The notes under the pieces are model-generated. The model searched no databases. It was not told the origin of the DNA and worked only from the letters and a program-made list of their open reading frames with translations. Source: Parcubacteria group bacterium CG08_land_8_20_14_0_20_48_21 (GTDB lineage: Bacteria; Patescibacteriota; Patescibacteriia; UBA1544). From it: a DNA stretch of 36,570 nt. Each line of letters begins with the position of its first letter. The stretch's first letter is position 1. Location of the stretch: assembly GCA_002774425.1 (NCBI GenBank), contig PEYJ01000026.1, positions 1-36,570 on the forward strand. Reading direction: 5' to 3'. The translations under genes were made by a program, and so were the position numbers. Below, piece by piece: positions 4,903 to 32,212 of this stretch.

Positions 4903-6084
4903 TTATGTAATAAATTGCAACCGTTTCATTTCAGTGACAATATACTCCCCTACTTCCCGCCGTACGGGATGGACAATAGCCGGAATGTCTTGAGGGTTAA
5001 TCCATTGGTATCCCGAGAGCTCGCGCTTTTCAAGATGTAGAGCTGCATCCGATCCGTGCCACGCAAGAAAGAATATATGCTGTTCTTGTCCGCGGAAGCT
5101 TTGTATCTGACCTTTTGGCCAATTATAGGTATAGGTTTTTGCCGCTTTGCCTTCAATGGTAAATGTAGCGCATCCCAACTCTTCCTGCAACTCACGCAAC
5201 ACACCTTCCTCCGATGTTTCACCACTACTGATACCGCCTTGCGGGAATTGCCAATGCGCCGGATCCGAAGCCCTTGACACAACAAGAACTTTTCCATCGG
5301 CGCGCCGGATAACCCCAAGTGCATTTTGACGGTAGCGATATTTGCTTTGCCAAACTATCTTTATCGCCTCTTTCCCAAATACTGCAACCGCACGCCAAAT
5401 ACGCGGTAATCTCGCGGGTTGACGCGCAAGCCGCCACAGCCACTCAAGTCCAATGTTGCGCAAAGCACGGGGTGCGCGTTTTTGTCTGCCGGTAAGATAG
5501 TCCAGCGATCCGCCAATACCCATGCCCACACGCAGCGATGGCACCGCATGCTTGTGTTGTACCAGCCACTGTTCCTGATACGGTGCGCCAAAATCAACCA
5601 GAATGATATCCGGCTGGTGGCGTTTGAGCGATTCCAAAACCGCTTGCTCTGATGCTTCTTCCGTTGATGCCGAAATAACGAAAAATGCGAGTTCCGGATA
5701 GCGCTCTTTAACCGCGCGCACCAGCTCACCTTTACTGGAAAGTCCATTGAGGCGATGGAACACCGCCACGCGTAGTTGATGTTTTTGCGCTTTCAGCAGC
5801 AAGCGCAGGGTCATATCAGCCCCCGTTACCGGATGTTCCAACCTGCCTCCCAACATGCGCAAAAGCCAGGTAAGTCCCGTACCGTCAGGAACGTTGAGAT
5901 CGGCTTCATTCAAGGCATCGCGATACGGTTTATTTTTTTTAGCCTCTAACAGTATTTCCGGATTGAGCGTGGTAATGATGTGCGGCTGTTGAGATGCCAA
6001 AAAACGATCAAGGTAACCAAGCGTTTCCTTGAAAGTAACCACATCAACCCGAGTTTCAAATAGATAGCAATGTCGGGGAAACAT
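4903..6084 (-). CDS. WecG/TagA/CpsF-family glycosyltransferase fused to a C-terminal RppH-like Nudix hydrolase domain
   Basis: N-terminus: TTLNPEILLEAKK...LNVPDGTGLTWLLR...HPVTGADM...ILVDFGAPYQEQWL...GMGIGGSLDYLTGRQKRAPRALRNIGLEWLWRL. C-terminus: WQFPQGGISSGETSEEGVLRELQEELG (Nudix box). Confidence 0.92.
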   Translation of the reverse strand: MFPRHCYLFETRVDVVTFKETLGYLDRFLASQQPHIITTLNPEILLEAKKNKPYRDALNEADLNVPDGTGLTWLLRMLGGRLEHPVTGADMTLRLLLKAQKHQLRVAVFHRLNGLSSKGELVRAVKERYPELAFFVISASTEEASEQAVLESLKRHQPDIILVDFGAPYQEQWLVQHKHAVPSLRVGMGIGGSLDYLTGRQKRAPRALRNIGLEWLWRLARQPARLPRIWRAVAVFGKEAIKIVWQSKYRYRQNALGVIRRADGKVLVVSRASDPAHWQFPQGGISSGETSEEGVLRELQEELGCATFTIEGKAAKTYTYNWPKGQIQSFRGQEQHIFFLAWHGSDAALHLEKRELSGYQWINPQDIPAIVHPVRREVGEYIVTEMKRLQFIT

Positions 6085-14884: not shown

Positions 14885-16358
14885 AAAGTAACAGAAGTCC
14901 GATGCCAAGCGGGTGGTTGAGATACGGGCTAAACGCATGAGTTGTGGCAAGAGCGATCATGCCTATCCCAAAGCCAAATAACCTTGCGTCAGCACGTGTA
15001 TGATAAAATGGCGGTGGTGGTGTCCTCAAGCAGCTTGTCCACTCCCTCCCTAACGTCCACAACAGCCACAAGAGCGCCAATATACCGATAAGCCCCATTT
15101 TGAGCCACATGTCCAAATATCCCCACTCAACCGCGCTTGTGGTGTAGAGACCGTCCGGGTGGGTAGCAAGTATACGGGGATCCTGCGAGATATACGTCAC
15201 CGTTGCACCAAACCCCTGCCCCCTAATGGGTGCTTTTTTTATTTCGCCAAGCAATGGCTTGAGAAGCGCCCACCGGCTCCCTACCCCCGCTTCTCCCGAA
15301 AACGTTGCCGCACGCTGTGCAAGTACGGACAGATCAAAAGATCCGCTACCCAATTTTGGCAAGGGTACGACTGCTACGCTCCACGCCAAAAACACACCAA
15401 GAACTCCCGCAACCATGCTCACGCTAAAAAATTTTACCGCTTGCACAACATACGTCTTGCGATGTCGTATATTGGGAAAGAGAGGCAACAGAAAGATAAA
15501 AAATAATCCCGCGATACTCCCCACCCAAAAAGATCGGGATCCGCTGGCAAAAAGCGATGCGGTAAAGAGCGAAGCAAGCAACCACAAGGTGAGTGTTTTT
15601 TGGGATTCTCTTCTATGAAGCAGGAGTGCCAGCACGATAAACAGCCCAACGAGATGGAAGATTTGGCTCTGCAGAAAAATGCGACTCATACCCCCAAGAA
15701 GCTGGGTAATTTCCCCTACGCCGGTCATGCGAACCCATCGGTAAACCGGTTCCCACCAATACCAAAGAGGATGGGAAAACCAAAGCACCAACCACAGCGT
15801 CTTCAAAGAGAGTATGACCGTTGCAGCGCAAGCAACTTCAATGAGCCGCGCGAAGAAGTTGTGCCGAATATATACGGCAAGTAGCGGCAAGAGCAGCGTG
15901 CCGTAGGCATAGCTGTTCACATCAAAAAAAATGTCGGCAAACGCATGCCGCAGCAGTATTCCTCGCGCAATGCCCATACCAATCACCACAGCGAAAAATC
16001 CATACGCCTTGCCAAGAGGTGTGGCAAAAAATCGCATAAGACGTATGCGCTGCTCCCGGTACAATAGAAAATGTCCGAACCACACCGCCATGACGATAAG
16101 ATAAATCCCCATGCGCAAAGAAAGATTAACGCCTCCCAAAGGTAAAACCAGTAGGTATCCTTTGGATCCAACCATAAGTTCCGCAAACGCCGCGTATAAG
16201 CCGATTTCCAGCCGCCACAGCGTCCCCCCAAGTATAGTCAACAGCACGATACCATACGCAATGGCGCCAAAAACAGGAATAAGATAACTGAAAAAAGATA
16301 CGAGTTCCATGAGCAGCAAGAGAGCTGCCGTAAGGCGAAATGCGGAGGTGGAGCACAT
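14829..16358 (-). CDS. O-antigen ligase/polymerase-like polytopic membrane protein
   Basis: About 12 hydrophobic segments; GSRSFWVGSIAG and the periplasmic-loop region GVGSRWALLKPLLGEIKKAPIRGQGFGATVTY are typical of O-antigen ligase-family proteins. Confidence 0.8.
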   Translation of the reverse strand: MCSTSAFRLTAALLLLMELVSFFSYLIPVFGAIAYGIVLLTILGGTLWRLEIGLYAAFAELMVGSKGYLLVLPLGGVNLSLRMGIYLIVMAVWFGHFLLYREQRIRLMRFFATPLGKAYGFFAVVIGMGIARGILLRHAFADIFFDVNSYAYGTLLLPLLAVYIRHNFFARLIEVACAATVILSLKTLWLVLWFSHPLWYWWEPVYRWVRMTGVGEITQLLGGMSRIFLQSQIFHLVGLFIVLALLLHRRESQKTLTLWLLASLFTASLFASGSRSFWVGSIAGLFFIFLLPLFPNIRHRKTYVVQAVKFFSVSMVAGVLGVFLAWSVAVVPLPKLGSGSFDLSVLAQRAATFSGEAGVGSRWALLKPLLGEIKKAPIRGQGFGATVTYISQDPRILATHPDGLYTTSAVEWGYLDMWLKMGLIGILALLWLLWTLGREWTSCLRTPPPPFYHTRADARLFGFGIGMIALATTHAFSPYLNHPLGIGLLLLFTVALLTKSRQQISGIRA

Positions 16359-25414: not shown

Positions 25415-27223
25415 CTAGACATCTTTGTCAAGTAGTACGGCTTTAATGCGTCTGATGCCCGCAGAACTCGCCTCCTCTTTCTTAATTTTGAATACCCCAA
25501 GCTCCCCGGTATGCGTTACGTGTGGACCACCACAAATCTCTTTGCTGAAACCGCCGACCGTGTACACTTTTACTTTTTCTCCGTACTTATGTTCAAACAA
25601 GCCAATGGCTCCCGCCTGCTTAGCTTGGTCTACGGTCATTTCTTCAAAAGTTACCGGCAGGTCATCTCGTATCACCCAATTCACCATGTCTTCCACGCGC
25701 CGCTTTTCCGCATCGGTCATTTTTGCCGCATGGGTAAAATCAAAGCGCAGCCGTTCAGCCGTGATATTACTCCCCTTTTGTTCAACATGATCGCCCAGCA
25801 CGTTGCGCAGCGCTTTGTGCAGTAAGTGGGTTGCGGTATGCAGTTGTGTTGTTTCTTCCCGATGATCGGCAAGGCCGCCGGCAAATTTTTGTTCAGCGCC
25901 TTTTCGGGAAATATCCTGGTGTTTTGCGAGTTCCTGCATAAACCCTTCTTCATCTATCCCCAATCCTTTCTCTTGTGCCAATTCCTTTGTAATCTCAATA
26001 GGAAATCCAAAACTTTGATAGAGGTCAAAGACATCTTTGATAGCAACAGTCTGTAGGTTACGAACCTTTGCATCACGTGCAATTTTATCAAATTCCCGCA
26101 GTCCTTTGTCCAGTGCTTTGGTAAATTTTTCTTCTTCTTGCTTCATTTCATTCCCAATATGCTGCCGGTGTATGTTTAATTCAGGATATGATTCCCACAT
26201 GGTTGCAATAATAGTTTCCACAATGGCACTTGTCCAGCCAAATGCTTCTATGCCAACCTTCCTGCCTTCACGCATAGCTCTGCGAATAAGCCGCCGCAAC
26301 ACATATCCCTGATCAACATTTGAAGGCATAACACCGTCCGCAAGAATGAACGTAGCCGCCCGAAGGTGATCGGCAATAATTCTTTTCGCCCTCCGGTCAT
26401 CTTGATTCGTTAATGTACCCATTGCTTTGAAAAGAGGTGCAAACATATCAGTTTCAAAGACACTCTCTACACCCTGCAATACCATTGCTACCCGTTCAAG
26501 GCCTAATCCCGTATCAACATTGCGTTGCGTGAGCGGCACATAGGAACCGTCCGCCATTTTTTCATACTGCATAAAGACGTCGTTCCATATCTCCACATAC
26601 CGACCGCAGTCGCAATTGATGTGGCATTTCTTTCCATAGGCAGGAGCGTGAGTTTTACCCGTATCGTAAAACATTTCGGTGTCTGGGCCGCAAGGCCCCG
26701 TTTGCCCCGCAGGACCCCACCAATTTTTAGCTTTCGGATACATGAAGATACGATCACCCTCCTTTGCGTCAATTCCCACACCTTTAAAGGCCGTTTTCCA
26801 TATGCGGATAGATTCTGTGTCTTTCGGTGCGTCCGCATCTCCGGTAAAAACCGATACGGACAGTCGATGGGGGTCAATGCCAAGCCACTTTTTTGATGAT
26901 AAAAACTCAAAACTCCAGCGTATCGCATCTTCTTTAAAATAATCGCCAAGCGACCAATTACCCAGCATTTCAAAAAATGTGAGATGACGGTTGTCGCCAA
27001 CCTCGTCAATATCTCCGGTGCGAATGCATTTTTGCGCGTTAGCAAGGCGGGTGCCCCCCGGATGCTTTTCGCCCATGAGATAGGGAACCAGCGGATGCAT
27101 ACCGGCTGTCGTAAACAGCACTGTTGGGTCATTTTCAGGCAACAATGAAGCGGACGGGATAATAGTGTGTCCCTTCTCTGTAAAAAAGGAGAGAAATTTT
27201 TCGCGTATTTCACTTGATCTCAT
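25415..27223 (-). CDS. alaS: Alanine--tRNA ligase, short form lacking C-Ala
   Basis: FFTEKGHTIIPSASLLPENDPTVLFTTAGMHPLVPYLMGEKHP; editing motifs HTATHLLHKALR and CGGPHVTHTGELG; ends at SSAGIRRIKAVLLDKDV. Confidence 0.96.
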   Translation of the reverse strand: MRSSEIREKFLSFFTEKGHTIIPSASLLPENDPTVLFTTAGMHPLVPYLMGEKHPGGTRLANAQKCIRTGDIDEVGDNRHLTFFEMLGNWSLGDYFKEDAIRWSFEFLSSKKWLGIDPHRLSVSVFTGDADAPKDTESIRIWKTAFKGVGIDAKEGDRIFMYPKAKNWWGPAGQTGPCGPDTEMFYDTGKTHAPAYGKKCHINCDCGRYVEIWNDVFMQYEKMADGSYVPLTQRNVDTGLGLERVAMVLQGVESVFETDMFAPLFKAMGTLTNQDDRRAKRIIADHLRAATFILADGVMPSNVDQGYVLRRLIRRAMREGRKVGIEAFGWTSAIVETIIATMWESYPELNIHRQHIGNEMKQEEEKFTKALDKGLREFDKIARDAKVRNLQTVAIKDVFDLYQSFGFPIEITKELAQEKGLGIDEEGFMQELAKHQDISRKGAEQKFAGGLADHREETTQLHTATHLLHKALRNVLGDHVEQKGSNITAERLRFDFTHAAKMTDAEKRRVEDMVNWVIRDDLPVTFEEMTVDQAKQAGAIGLFEHKYGEKVKVYTVGGFSKEICGGPHVTHTGELGVFKIKKEEASSAGIRRIKAVLLDKDV

Positions 27224-27684: not shown

Positions 27685-28385
27685 ACACTGTACCTCCTTC
27701 TCTTTGTGGAAGGTTTTTTATAAAACCGATGTCTGCGGACATCTGGTATGAGGAAGGTTCTTCAGTTTAGGTAAGGTGGTGGATAACTTCGCGCAGTGTG
27801 TCCACTCGCTTTTGCAGTTGCACATTTTCTTCTTGCAACGCCATATTTTGCTTCTGCGTTGCCATATTCCGCCTAAAAAGATCACTCTCTTCACTCATCC
27901 TTGAGCGAAGGGCGAGTATGATCTGCGCCGCAAGATCACCTTCAGCCTATCTGCCGCGAAACTCTTTGAGTTTCTTTTCCTGATTTTCCCGCGAATCATG
28001 GTCGCTCAAATCTAGCAGTTTTCCTACAAGAGCGCGGATTGCGCGCGGATAATTCGTGCTACGTCCGCCTAATTCAAACTCCGCTAGGGCAAGCATCGCA
28101 CTGGCGAAGCCAATACTTATTTGGGGAGATAACTTAAAATCAGGAGAGATGGAAATACCCTGTACATGGCTATACAGGTGTTCCGGCTTCGGATACTCTC
28201 TATCAAAAGAAATACAATCGCTTAAATCAATCCCCCTTACCTCTCGGGTAAAATCACCTTTCCACTCTATGAGCTGCGCATTAGCAATCGGCTCTTTACC
28301 TATGCCAACAAGCACAAACTCATCTCCCCTGTCACGGTACACTTCCGTCCACATCGTCTTTTTTGCAATATAAGCCCTTGTTTCG

Positions 28386-28393
28386 CCCCCCCC
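28386..28393 (-). repeat. Homopolymer G8 (minus strand) at the frameshift point
   Basis: Plus-strand GCCCCCCCCT, direct count. Confidence 0.95.
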
Positions 28394-28429
28394 TCAAGCG
28401 TGCTGATTATTTTTTTGAGATACCGATTA

Positions 28430-28438
28430 CCCCCCCCC
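28430..28438 (-). repeat. Homopolymer G9 (minus strand) inside the same gene
   Basis: Plus-strand ACCCCCCCCCT, direct count; in-frame codons GAG GGG GGG GGT AAT. Confidence 0.95.
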
Positions 28439-28824
28439 TCCCCGTCATGCCCGATCAAAAAATTCACCGCTTTCAGCATCCAGACGTCAATATACATCAC
28501 AAAAAGACGTTGGTAGGCATCGGGAGTAACGTTATTTCGTACCAGTAAGTCTAAATAATACCGCAAATTTCTTCGCAGCAGGTTGGTATTTCCCAGCCCA
28601 AATAATTCATCTCTCGCACACTTACGATGCATAATTTGCTGCCAGCCGGTCTGTGTGGCATATACCAAGTGATTAGCAATAGGCCATTTCTTGCGCAATT
28701 GATACAGCTCGGAGTGACCCCGGGCAGCATCGGGCGCACGATGCGTAATGCTGCGTCGAGTCATGGTAGATTCCTCCATTGCGTTGTTAAAAGATCAGCA
28801 CACAATATTGTATCGTGCGCTTGC

Positions 28825-28852
28825 ATAGTACAGAAAAATACCCGTTTGTCAA
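28825..28852 (-). promoter_or_regulatory. Promoter TTGACA-N16-TACTAT upstream of the poly-G gene
   Basis: Minus-strand perfect -35 (28852-28847) and -10 TACTAT (28830-28825), ~45 nt upstream of the start codon. Confidence 0.5.
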
Positions 28853-28876: not shown

Positions 28877-29956
28877 TTAGGTAATGACACCACCGCCAAG
28901 ACATTTTTCACCATTATAGAGTACCGCGTACTGTCCGGGAGTTATCGCACGCTGTTTTTCTTGAAAATGCAGTTCCAGTAAGTTTTTTTTCGTTCCTTGC
29001 CGTACGGTAACTTTTTGATCCGGCTGACGATAGCGAATTTTTACCGTGCAGTGCAGAGGCAATTTTGGAACAGTTCCCGATATCCAATGCATGTCCGCAA
29101 TGATAAGCTCCTTTTTAAAAAGCGCGTCATCCCAACTGCCTTTTGCTACCATAAGCTCGTTGCGCTTGACGTTTTTACTGACCACGTACCACGGAATTCC
29201 CCCGCCGGTTGATCCGATGCCGTGCCGCTGACCAATGGTATAAAACCATACGCCATCATGTTCGCCTAGTATGTCGCCATCGGTTGTAACCACGTTTCCT
29301 TTTTTTGGTCGTAGACGCTGCGACAAAAATTCCCGTAACGATACTTTACCAATAAAACAAATCCCTTGGCTGTCCTTTCTATCCCAGTTGTGCAATTCTT
29401 CTTTTTTTGCGATTGCCCGAACTTCCTTTTTGGTAAGATCGCCAAGAGGAAACATACTTTTGGAAAGTTGTTTTTGGGTGAGCTGATGCAAAAAATATGA
29501 TTGGTCTTTGGTTTGGTCAATACCTTTATGCAGCTCGTAGATGCTTTTTTTAGCCAGGACGCTCGCGTAATGTCCCGTACCGATTGCCCCGGCGCCAAGT
29601 TTTTCCGCATAGTCTAAAAAAACTTTGAATTTTATTTCACTGTTGCAGAGAATGTCTGGATTTGGGGTCAATCCTTTTTTGTAGGTGGTAAAAAAATATT
29701 CCAACACTTTTTTTTCGTATTCTTTTTCAAAATTAACAACATGAAACGGCAAGTCAAGCTTGGCGCATACCCGCCGCGCATCACGCATATCATCTTCCCA
29801 AGGACAGCACCCTTGCAATCTCTCGGGATTGAAGTTCTGCATGAATACGCCAATTACTTCATACCCCTGCCGTTGCAACAACAGCGCGGCGACGCTACTA
29901 TCCACTCCTCCGGACATGCCGACGAAGACCTTGGATTTGTTTGATGAAATGGTCAT
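28877..29956 (-). CDS. mnmA: tRNA 2-thiouridine(34) synthase MnmA
   Basis: VFVGMSGGVDSSVAALLLQRQGYEVIGVFMQ, NPDILCNSEIKF, GICFIG, YYTIGQRHGIG-like FYTIGQRHGIGSTGG. Start moved to 29956. Confidence 0.96.
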   Translation of the reverse strand: MTISSNKSKVFVGMSGGVDSSVAALLLQRQGYEVIGVFMQNFNPERLQGCCPWEDDMRDARRVCAKLDLPFHVVNFEKEYEKKVLEYFFTTYKKGLTPNPDILCNSEIKFKVFLDYAEKLGAGAIGTGHYASVLAKKSIYELHKGIDQTKDQSYFLHQLTQKQLSKSMFPLGDLTKKEVRAIAKKEELHNWDRKDSQGICFIGKVSLREFLSQRLRPKKGNVVTTDGDILGEHDGVWFYTIGQRHGIGSTGGGIPWYVVSKNVKRNELMVAKGSWDDALFKKELIIADMHWISGTVPKLPLHCTVKIRYRQPDQKVTVRQGTKKNLLELHFQEKQRAITPGQYAVLYNGEKCLGGGVIT

Positions 29957-30172
29957 AATAAAAAATGTGGTGCGAGCCCGGCTCCTGCCAAGCGAATGCA
30001 AAAGGATCAAAGAATCCAAGAGCCAAGGGGTCAAAAATTATATGCAAGGTATATAAACTCCTCAGCTCGGAAATATAAAAGTAAACTTTACTATTTCACT
30101 CGCTCTACGTCGCTTATAAAGAGGCTTTATGGCGACAATAAGTTCTTTGTTATACTGATTCAAGAACGGTTA

Positions 30173-31984: not shown

Positions 31985-32197
31985 TTATTTTTTATTGGAA
32001 ACGTACGCAGTATTACCGGCTTTTTTTGTATCATCTTGCAACAGCACAAATGCAACGATGAGCGACATAATACCGATAATGACAAGCAACGTATTCCCGA
32101 TAGGTATTGTTGACACCGCATCTTTTAATCGCGGCACCAATAGAAATGCCGCATCAACAACGAGGAGTATGGTTGCGAGTACATGTCTTCCTTTCAT
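31985..32197 (-). CDS. Small membrane protein, two predicted TM segments
   Basis: MKGRHVLATILLVVDAAFLLVPRLKDAVSTIPIGNTLLVIIGIMSLIVAFVLLQDDTKKAG; G-run as Shine-Dalgarno 7 nt upstream of ATG. Confidence 0.6.
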   Translation of the reverse strand: MKGRHVLATILLVVDAAFLLVPRLKDAVSTIPIGNTLLVIIGIMSLIVAFVLLQDDTKKAGNTAYVSNKK

Positions 32198-32204
32198 TTG
32201 GTCA

Positions 32205-32212
32205 CCCCCCCC
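32205..32212 (-). repeat. Homopolymer G8 (minus strand) at the Shine-Dalgarno position of the small membrane protein gene
   Basis: Plus-strand CACCCCCCCCT, direct count; 7 nt from the ATG. Confidence 0.9.

Follow-up and report, generated by a model that had tools for sequence, protein, structure and literature searches.

A minus-strand gene lying between mnmA and alaS in the window, the 36,570-nt stretch of DNA analyzed here (the whole of contig 19 in an 876-kb genome of 41 contigs), meets two runs of guanine and loses its reading frame at the second, which raises the question of whether the gene is switched by changes in tract length, is being lost, or is out of frame only in the consensus sequence. 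An earlier note on this DNA had proposed a phase-variable locus. The two tracts, G9 and G8 on the minus strand and 36 nt apart, are present as that note described (Table 1), as is the TTGACA/TACTAT promoter sequence upstream, and the outcomes predicted for other lengths of the first tract check out when the sequence is read.

Table 1. Features of the interrupted gene and its surroundings, in window coordinates.
Feature	Position	Strand	Details and basis
Neighboring gene mnmA	28877-30034		
Candidate sigma-70 type promoter	28825-28852	-	TTGACA 28852-28847, 16-nt spacer, TACTAT 28830-28825; consensus match only
Ribosome-binding site and likely start codon	28762-28777	-	GGAGGA 28777-28772, ATG 28764-28762; sequence reading
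Coding segment for the N terminus (first frame), with the beginning of the GGDEF-like domain	28394-28764	-	Profile positions 101-172; alignments
G tract 1 (G9), in frame	28430-28438	-	Sequence; profile alignment
G tract 2 (G8), frameshift point	28386-28393	-	Sequence; profile match breaks at positions 172/174
Middle coding segment, second frame, RGDEF motif	27950-28385	-	Profile positions 174-315; coding score
In-frame TAG within the family's homologous region (second lesion)	27947-27949	-	Sequence; one TAG inside profile match
Coiled-coil tail beyond the TAG, second frame, ending at TAA 27769-27767	27767-27946	-	Coding score; added profile bits
Neighboring gene alaS	25415-27223		

Two ATG codons could start the gene, of which that at 28764 is likelier than that at 28779, as it has a GGAGGA ribosome site. 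Read from 28779, the first frame yields a 159-aa open reading frame (ORF) that stops 83 nt beyond the G8, and the frame one base off runs open straight from the G8 down to 27947, in agreement with the earlier note. Past the TAG at that point, the same frame is again open and coding-like as far as a TAA at 27767; the gene therefore carries two lesions, only one of which is a G tract. The note had missed both this TAG and the coding tail to 27767, and the joined protein of ~340 aa that it envisaged requires readthrough of the TAG. The middle segment has a coding score of 0.055 (its two alternative frames score -0.108 and -0.206), and the tail beyond the TAG has the best score of the three segments (0.097, with alaS at 0.089). 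None of the three segments contains any other stop codon, and their codon use is coding-like. Reassignment of TAG as a sense codon was rejected because TAG serves as a regular stop here, ending 112 of the genome's 484 long ORFs.

Homology across the breaks identifies the gene. A search with the middle piece among relatives (genomes of the same class as the window genome) returned one weak match, a protein of 428 aa that carries a GGDEF motif, and the reverse search from that relative matched window positions 27791 to 28363, across the TAG (E = 1.1e-7). Scanned directly against named genomes, the middle piece gave no match to a close relative. Further family members were recovered from relatives and from named genomes, and all the named homologs are Patescibacteria (Buchananbacteria, Uhrbacteria, Moraniibacteriota, and Adlerbacteria, plus other metagenome-assembled genomes), which bears out the note's assumption of a CPR genome. 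A profile built from eight relatives, with the window gene left out, had a single match in the window genome, at this locus (E = 1.1e-14), with one TAG inside the match; no second copy was found in the genome. The frame before tract 2 matches profile positions 101 to 172 with 25 bits (maximum among shuffled sequences, 3.4 bits) and the frame after it matches positions 174 to 315 with 42 bits (maximum, 4.6 bits). Because the profile follows one frame before the tract and the other frame after it, the G8 is the break point, and homology on both sides bears out the frame jump that the note had placed there.

Against the profile, the joined sequence reaches 89 bits, compared with 25 and 42 bits for the parts. 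Without the tail beyond the TAG the score is 77 bits, so the tail contributes a gain of 12 bits, which was equaled by 8 of 2,000 shuffled tails; the tail by itself gave no significant match to the profile. These scores for the parts, the joined sequence, and the added tail indicate that a single gene most likely once spanned all three segments.

The note had not recognized the family, which proves to be recognizable and known in other Patescibacteria: judging by its sequence, the window gene encodes a degenerate GGDEF-like domain and, C-terminal to it, a coiled coil, and belongs to a divergent Patescibacteria family. Several relatives match the Pfam diguanylate cyclase model PF00990 (for L142, E = 5.5e-7), and an AlphaFold model of L142 (mean pLDDT, 79) matches GGDEF structures, including the solved diguanylate cyclases DgcR (6zxm), SiaD, and PleD, with a Foldseek probability of 1.00. 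The window gene differs in being unmatched by PF00990, whether searched as pieces (E ≤ 1), as the joined sequence (E ≤ 10), or across the genome (E ≤ 1), and the family differs from the Pfam domain in adding a C-terminal coiled coil. Weak phmmer matches to AvrM in the PDB (E = 0.02) were rejected since the evidence for GGDEF is far stronger. The gene points to a GGDEF-like, coiled-coil group that the Pfam GGDEF model detects weakly or not at all.

Members elsewhere vary in architecture. One relative (L143:3407-6421) encodes a 1,004-aa protein with two tandem copies of the GGDEF-like domain. In three relatives (L016:2715-4169, L018:2207-3343, and L020:2-676), similar membrane proteins are encoded after GGDEF-type genes, and one of these membrane proteins has a weak Baseplate_J match (E = 0.0013); two of these GGDEF-type genes belong to the family of the window gene, and that at L020 encodes a longer, 827-aa GGDEF protein.

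The window copy is eroded in the motif best conserved within the family. There it reads DVWMLKAVNF, as opposed to D[LAV][ND]GLK[AS]VND in the relatives, and it has RGDEF where the relatives mostly have GGDEF or SGDEF, so that neither active-site motif (GG[DE]EF or DxD...ND) is intact. The family ORFs used from the relatives are uninterrupted, and an extended profile match in one of them (G048) holds one TGA. No G run longer than 7 nt was seen in the family gene of these distant relatives. Relative to the eight-relative profile, tract 1 coincides with a three-residue insertion in the loop before G(N/D)xYL, and by its position in the L142 model, tract 2 falls in the loop leading out of the helix ahead of the GGDEF hairpin.

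We consider it somewhat more probable than its negation that this was a single GGDEF-like, coiled-coil gene that was recently inactivated, with a change in G-tract length, perhaps in part an error of the consensus, as one lesion and a nonsense codon as the other. The poly-G tract, prone to slippage and situated in a tolerant loop, would have changed its length in a slip and so caused the frameshift; a nonsense mutation (the TAG) would have arisen ahead of the coiled coil, either after or before the slip; and the gene would no longer have been strongly needed. The analysis shows that the frame breaks at the G8, that a TAG follows, and that homology extends over all the segments. Compared with intact homologs, the gene has two independent disabling lesions, as a pseudogene would: the G8 frameshift and the TAG. 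Beyond these observations, we infer that the consensus tract length is real, that replication slippage produced it, and that the gene has died and is not being switched. The inactivation, if real, must be very recent, because the segments are otherwise stop-free and retain coding-like codon use. As a counterpoint, an in-frame tract would still allow production of a truncated protein that terminates at the TAG.

That the G tracts instead constitute a contingency switch, toggling a GGDEF-like protein that ends at the TAG within the population, appears distinctly unlikely to us. The locus resembles the poly-G contingency loci of Campylobacter and Neisseria in possessing a coding G run of 8 to 9 nt with one length out of frame, and such a switch would accord with the conservation of frame on both sides of the tract, with the intact promoter-like and ribosome sites, with the occurrence of two G tracts of at least 8 nt only 36 nt apart (0.004 such G/C pairs are expected by chance in the genome), and with the three-residue in-frame insertion at tract 1, which fits a tract that has grown. 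However, the gene is not otherwise intact, containing an in-frame TAG outside both tracts; its distant homologs lack the G tract; and the family shows no role in surface structures of the kind typical of contingency loci. The resemblance to the Campylobacter and Neisseria loci breaks down on these same points. Among relatives, coding G8 tracts lie mostly in intact frames (30 sampled loci, judged by eye), and a literature search turned up no description of poly-G phase variation for this group; the nearest report found concerns a gene hypervariable in repeat length in a gracilibacterium (PMC6851277).

Since a G8 frameshift is accompanied by an ordinary stop codon, a dying gene is likelier than an on/off switch, and since the second lesion is a TAG, no change in tract length can restore the gene. 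Of the earlier proposal, then, the second tract as the site of the frame break survives, but a reversible switch is unsupported, given the TAG, the absence of runs of 8 or more guanines in the distant homologs, the eroded motif, and the parallel case of rdgB described below. The note had said that homologs which both lack G tracts and end at the first ORF would count against it: the lack of G tracts was found, whereas an end at the first ORF was not, as the homologs continue through. Less likely again than a contingency gene in general is a specific version in which the tract switches a GGDEF-like regulator, c-di-GMP related or nucleotide binding, and the TAG yields a naturally shortened product. 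If tract lengths were found to vary in the population, the locus would be a phase-variable regulatory or signaling gene in bacteria that are rarely culturable.

The frame might also be restored without any change in the DNA, by RNA polymerase slippage or by -1 ribosomal slippage on the guanines, giving low-level expression; we rate this the least probable of the explanations. The tract contains G GGG GGG, in the X XXY YYZ arrangement known from -1 slip sites, and in Blochmannia, homopolymer frameshifts have been interpreted either as the onset of gene erosion or as lesions that transcriptional slippage compensates (PMC3017870). The situations are alike in that an otherwise open gene in a small genome is put off frame by one short homopolymer indel, but the Blochmannia tracts are poly-A/T, and the window gene combines poly-G with a nonsense codon that would remain in the way after frame rescue. 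Folding of the downstream RNA revealed no unusual structure (z = -0.67 and -1.36). Moreover, the slip site occurs in no relative, so conservation cannot be invoked in its favor.

A further explanation is that the G8 was miscalled in sequencing or assembly and that the true tract is in frame, with the gene coding for a shortened GGDEF-like protein that the TAG terminates. We regard this as unlikely, albeit less so than a switch. In its favor, all four homopolymer frame breaks identified in the genome (the window G8, a T7 and a G8 in rdgB, and an A8 in rlmH) are one base short, and both rdgB and rlmH are genes that are usually kept; two more kept genes are broken at other kinds of sites. Against it, the ~225 A/T runs of 8 nt in long ORFs are nearly all in frame, and frameshifts affect only ~3 of the roughly 350 to 390 genes matched by the relative G073. 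A/T runs fall from 267 at a length of 8 nt to 14 at 9 nt, and they do likewise in G073 and G071 (one closed genome among the relatives); because this drop is common to relatives, the run-length spectra give no sign of general homopolymer under-calling. It is as if A/T runs of at least 9 nt were avoided across the group. An error in length would also leave the TAG and the motif erosion unexplained.

Runs of guanine or cytosine of at least 8 nt are rare, numbering only nine in the genome, and two of the four coding ones are out of frame (the window G8 and that in rdgB). Coding G8 tracts are broken in 2 of 3 cases, as opposed to the A/T runs of the same length (Fisher exact test, P = 0.0003, based on small numbers), and the ~13 coding G7 tracts are intact. 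An example of a G8 that is intact lies at C39:1723-1730. The rdgB/Ham1-like gene, present as a sole copy (C32:11229-11763, minus strand; L220 and L221), is split over three frames by the T7 and the G8 (C32:11469-11476), which lie ~90 nt apart and are each one base short. In both this gene and the window gene, an off-frame G8 comes together with a further lesion, a pairing that would be expected from gene decay and not from switching.

The remaining interrupted genes are a rlmH-like gene that goes off frame at the A8 (C36 near 14967-14988, L058, minus strand), a D-alanine-D-alanine ligase-like gene (ddl) off frame at a 13-nt near-tandem repeat (C2 near 5612-5631, L022, minus strand), and an FMN-reductase-like gene off frame within a run of GC dinucleotides (C18 near 2579-2655, L038). 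Breaks in these usually kept genes show low-level erosion or consensus errors. Many candidates flagged by the frame-jump scan proved to be neighboring genes, and several of the homology-scan matches fell on antisense ORFs or on rRNA.

If the window gene is indeed decaying, it is an ordinary case of poly-G tracts acting as frameshift hotspots in small genomes, and it warns against taking an off-frame poly-G tract on its own as evidence of phase variation. The window contains a third G8 (32205-32212, minus strand), which lies just upstream of an ATG at 32197, at the spacing of a ribosome site; the small ORF beginning at this ATG lies downstream of a P-type ATPase gene.
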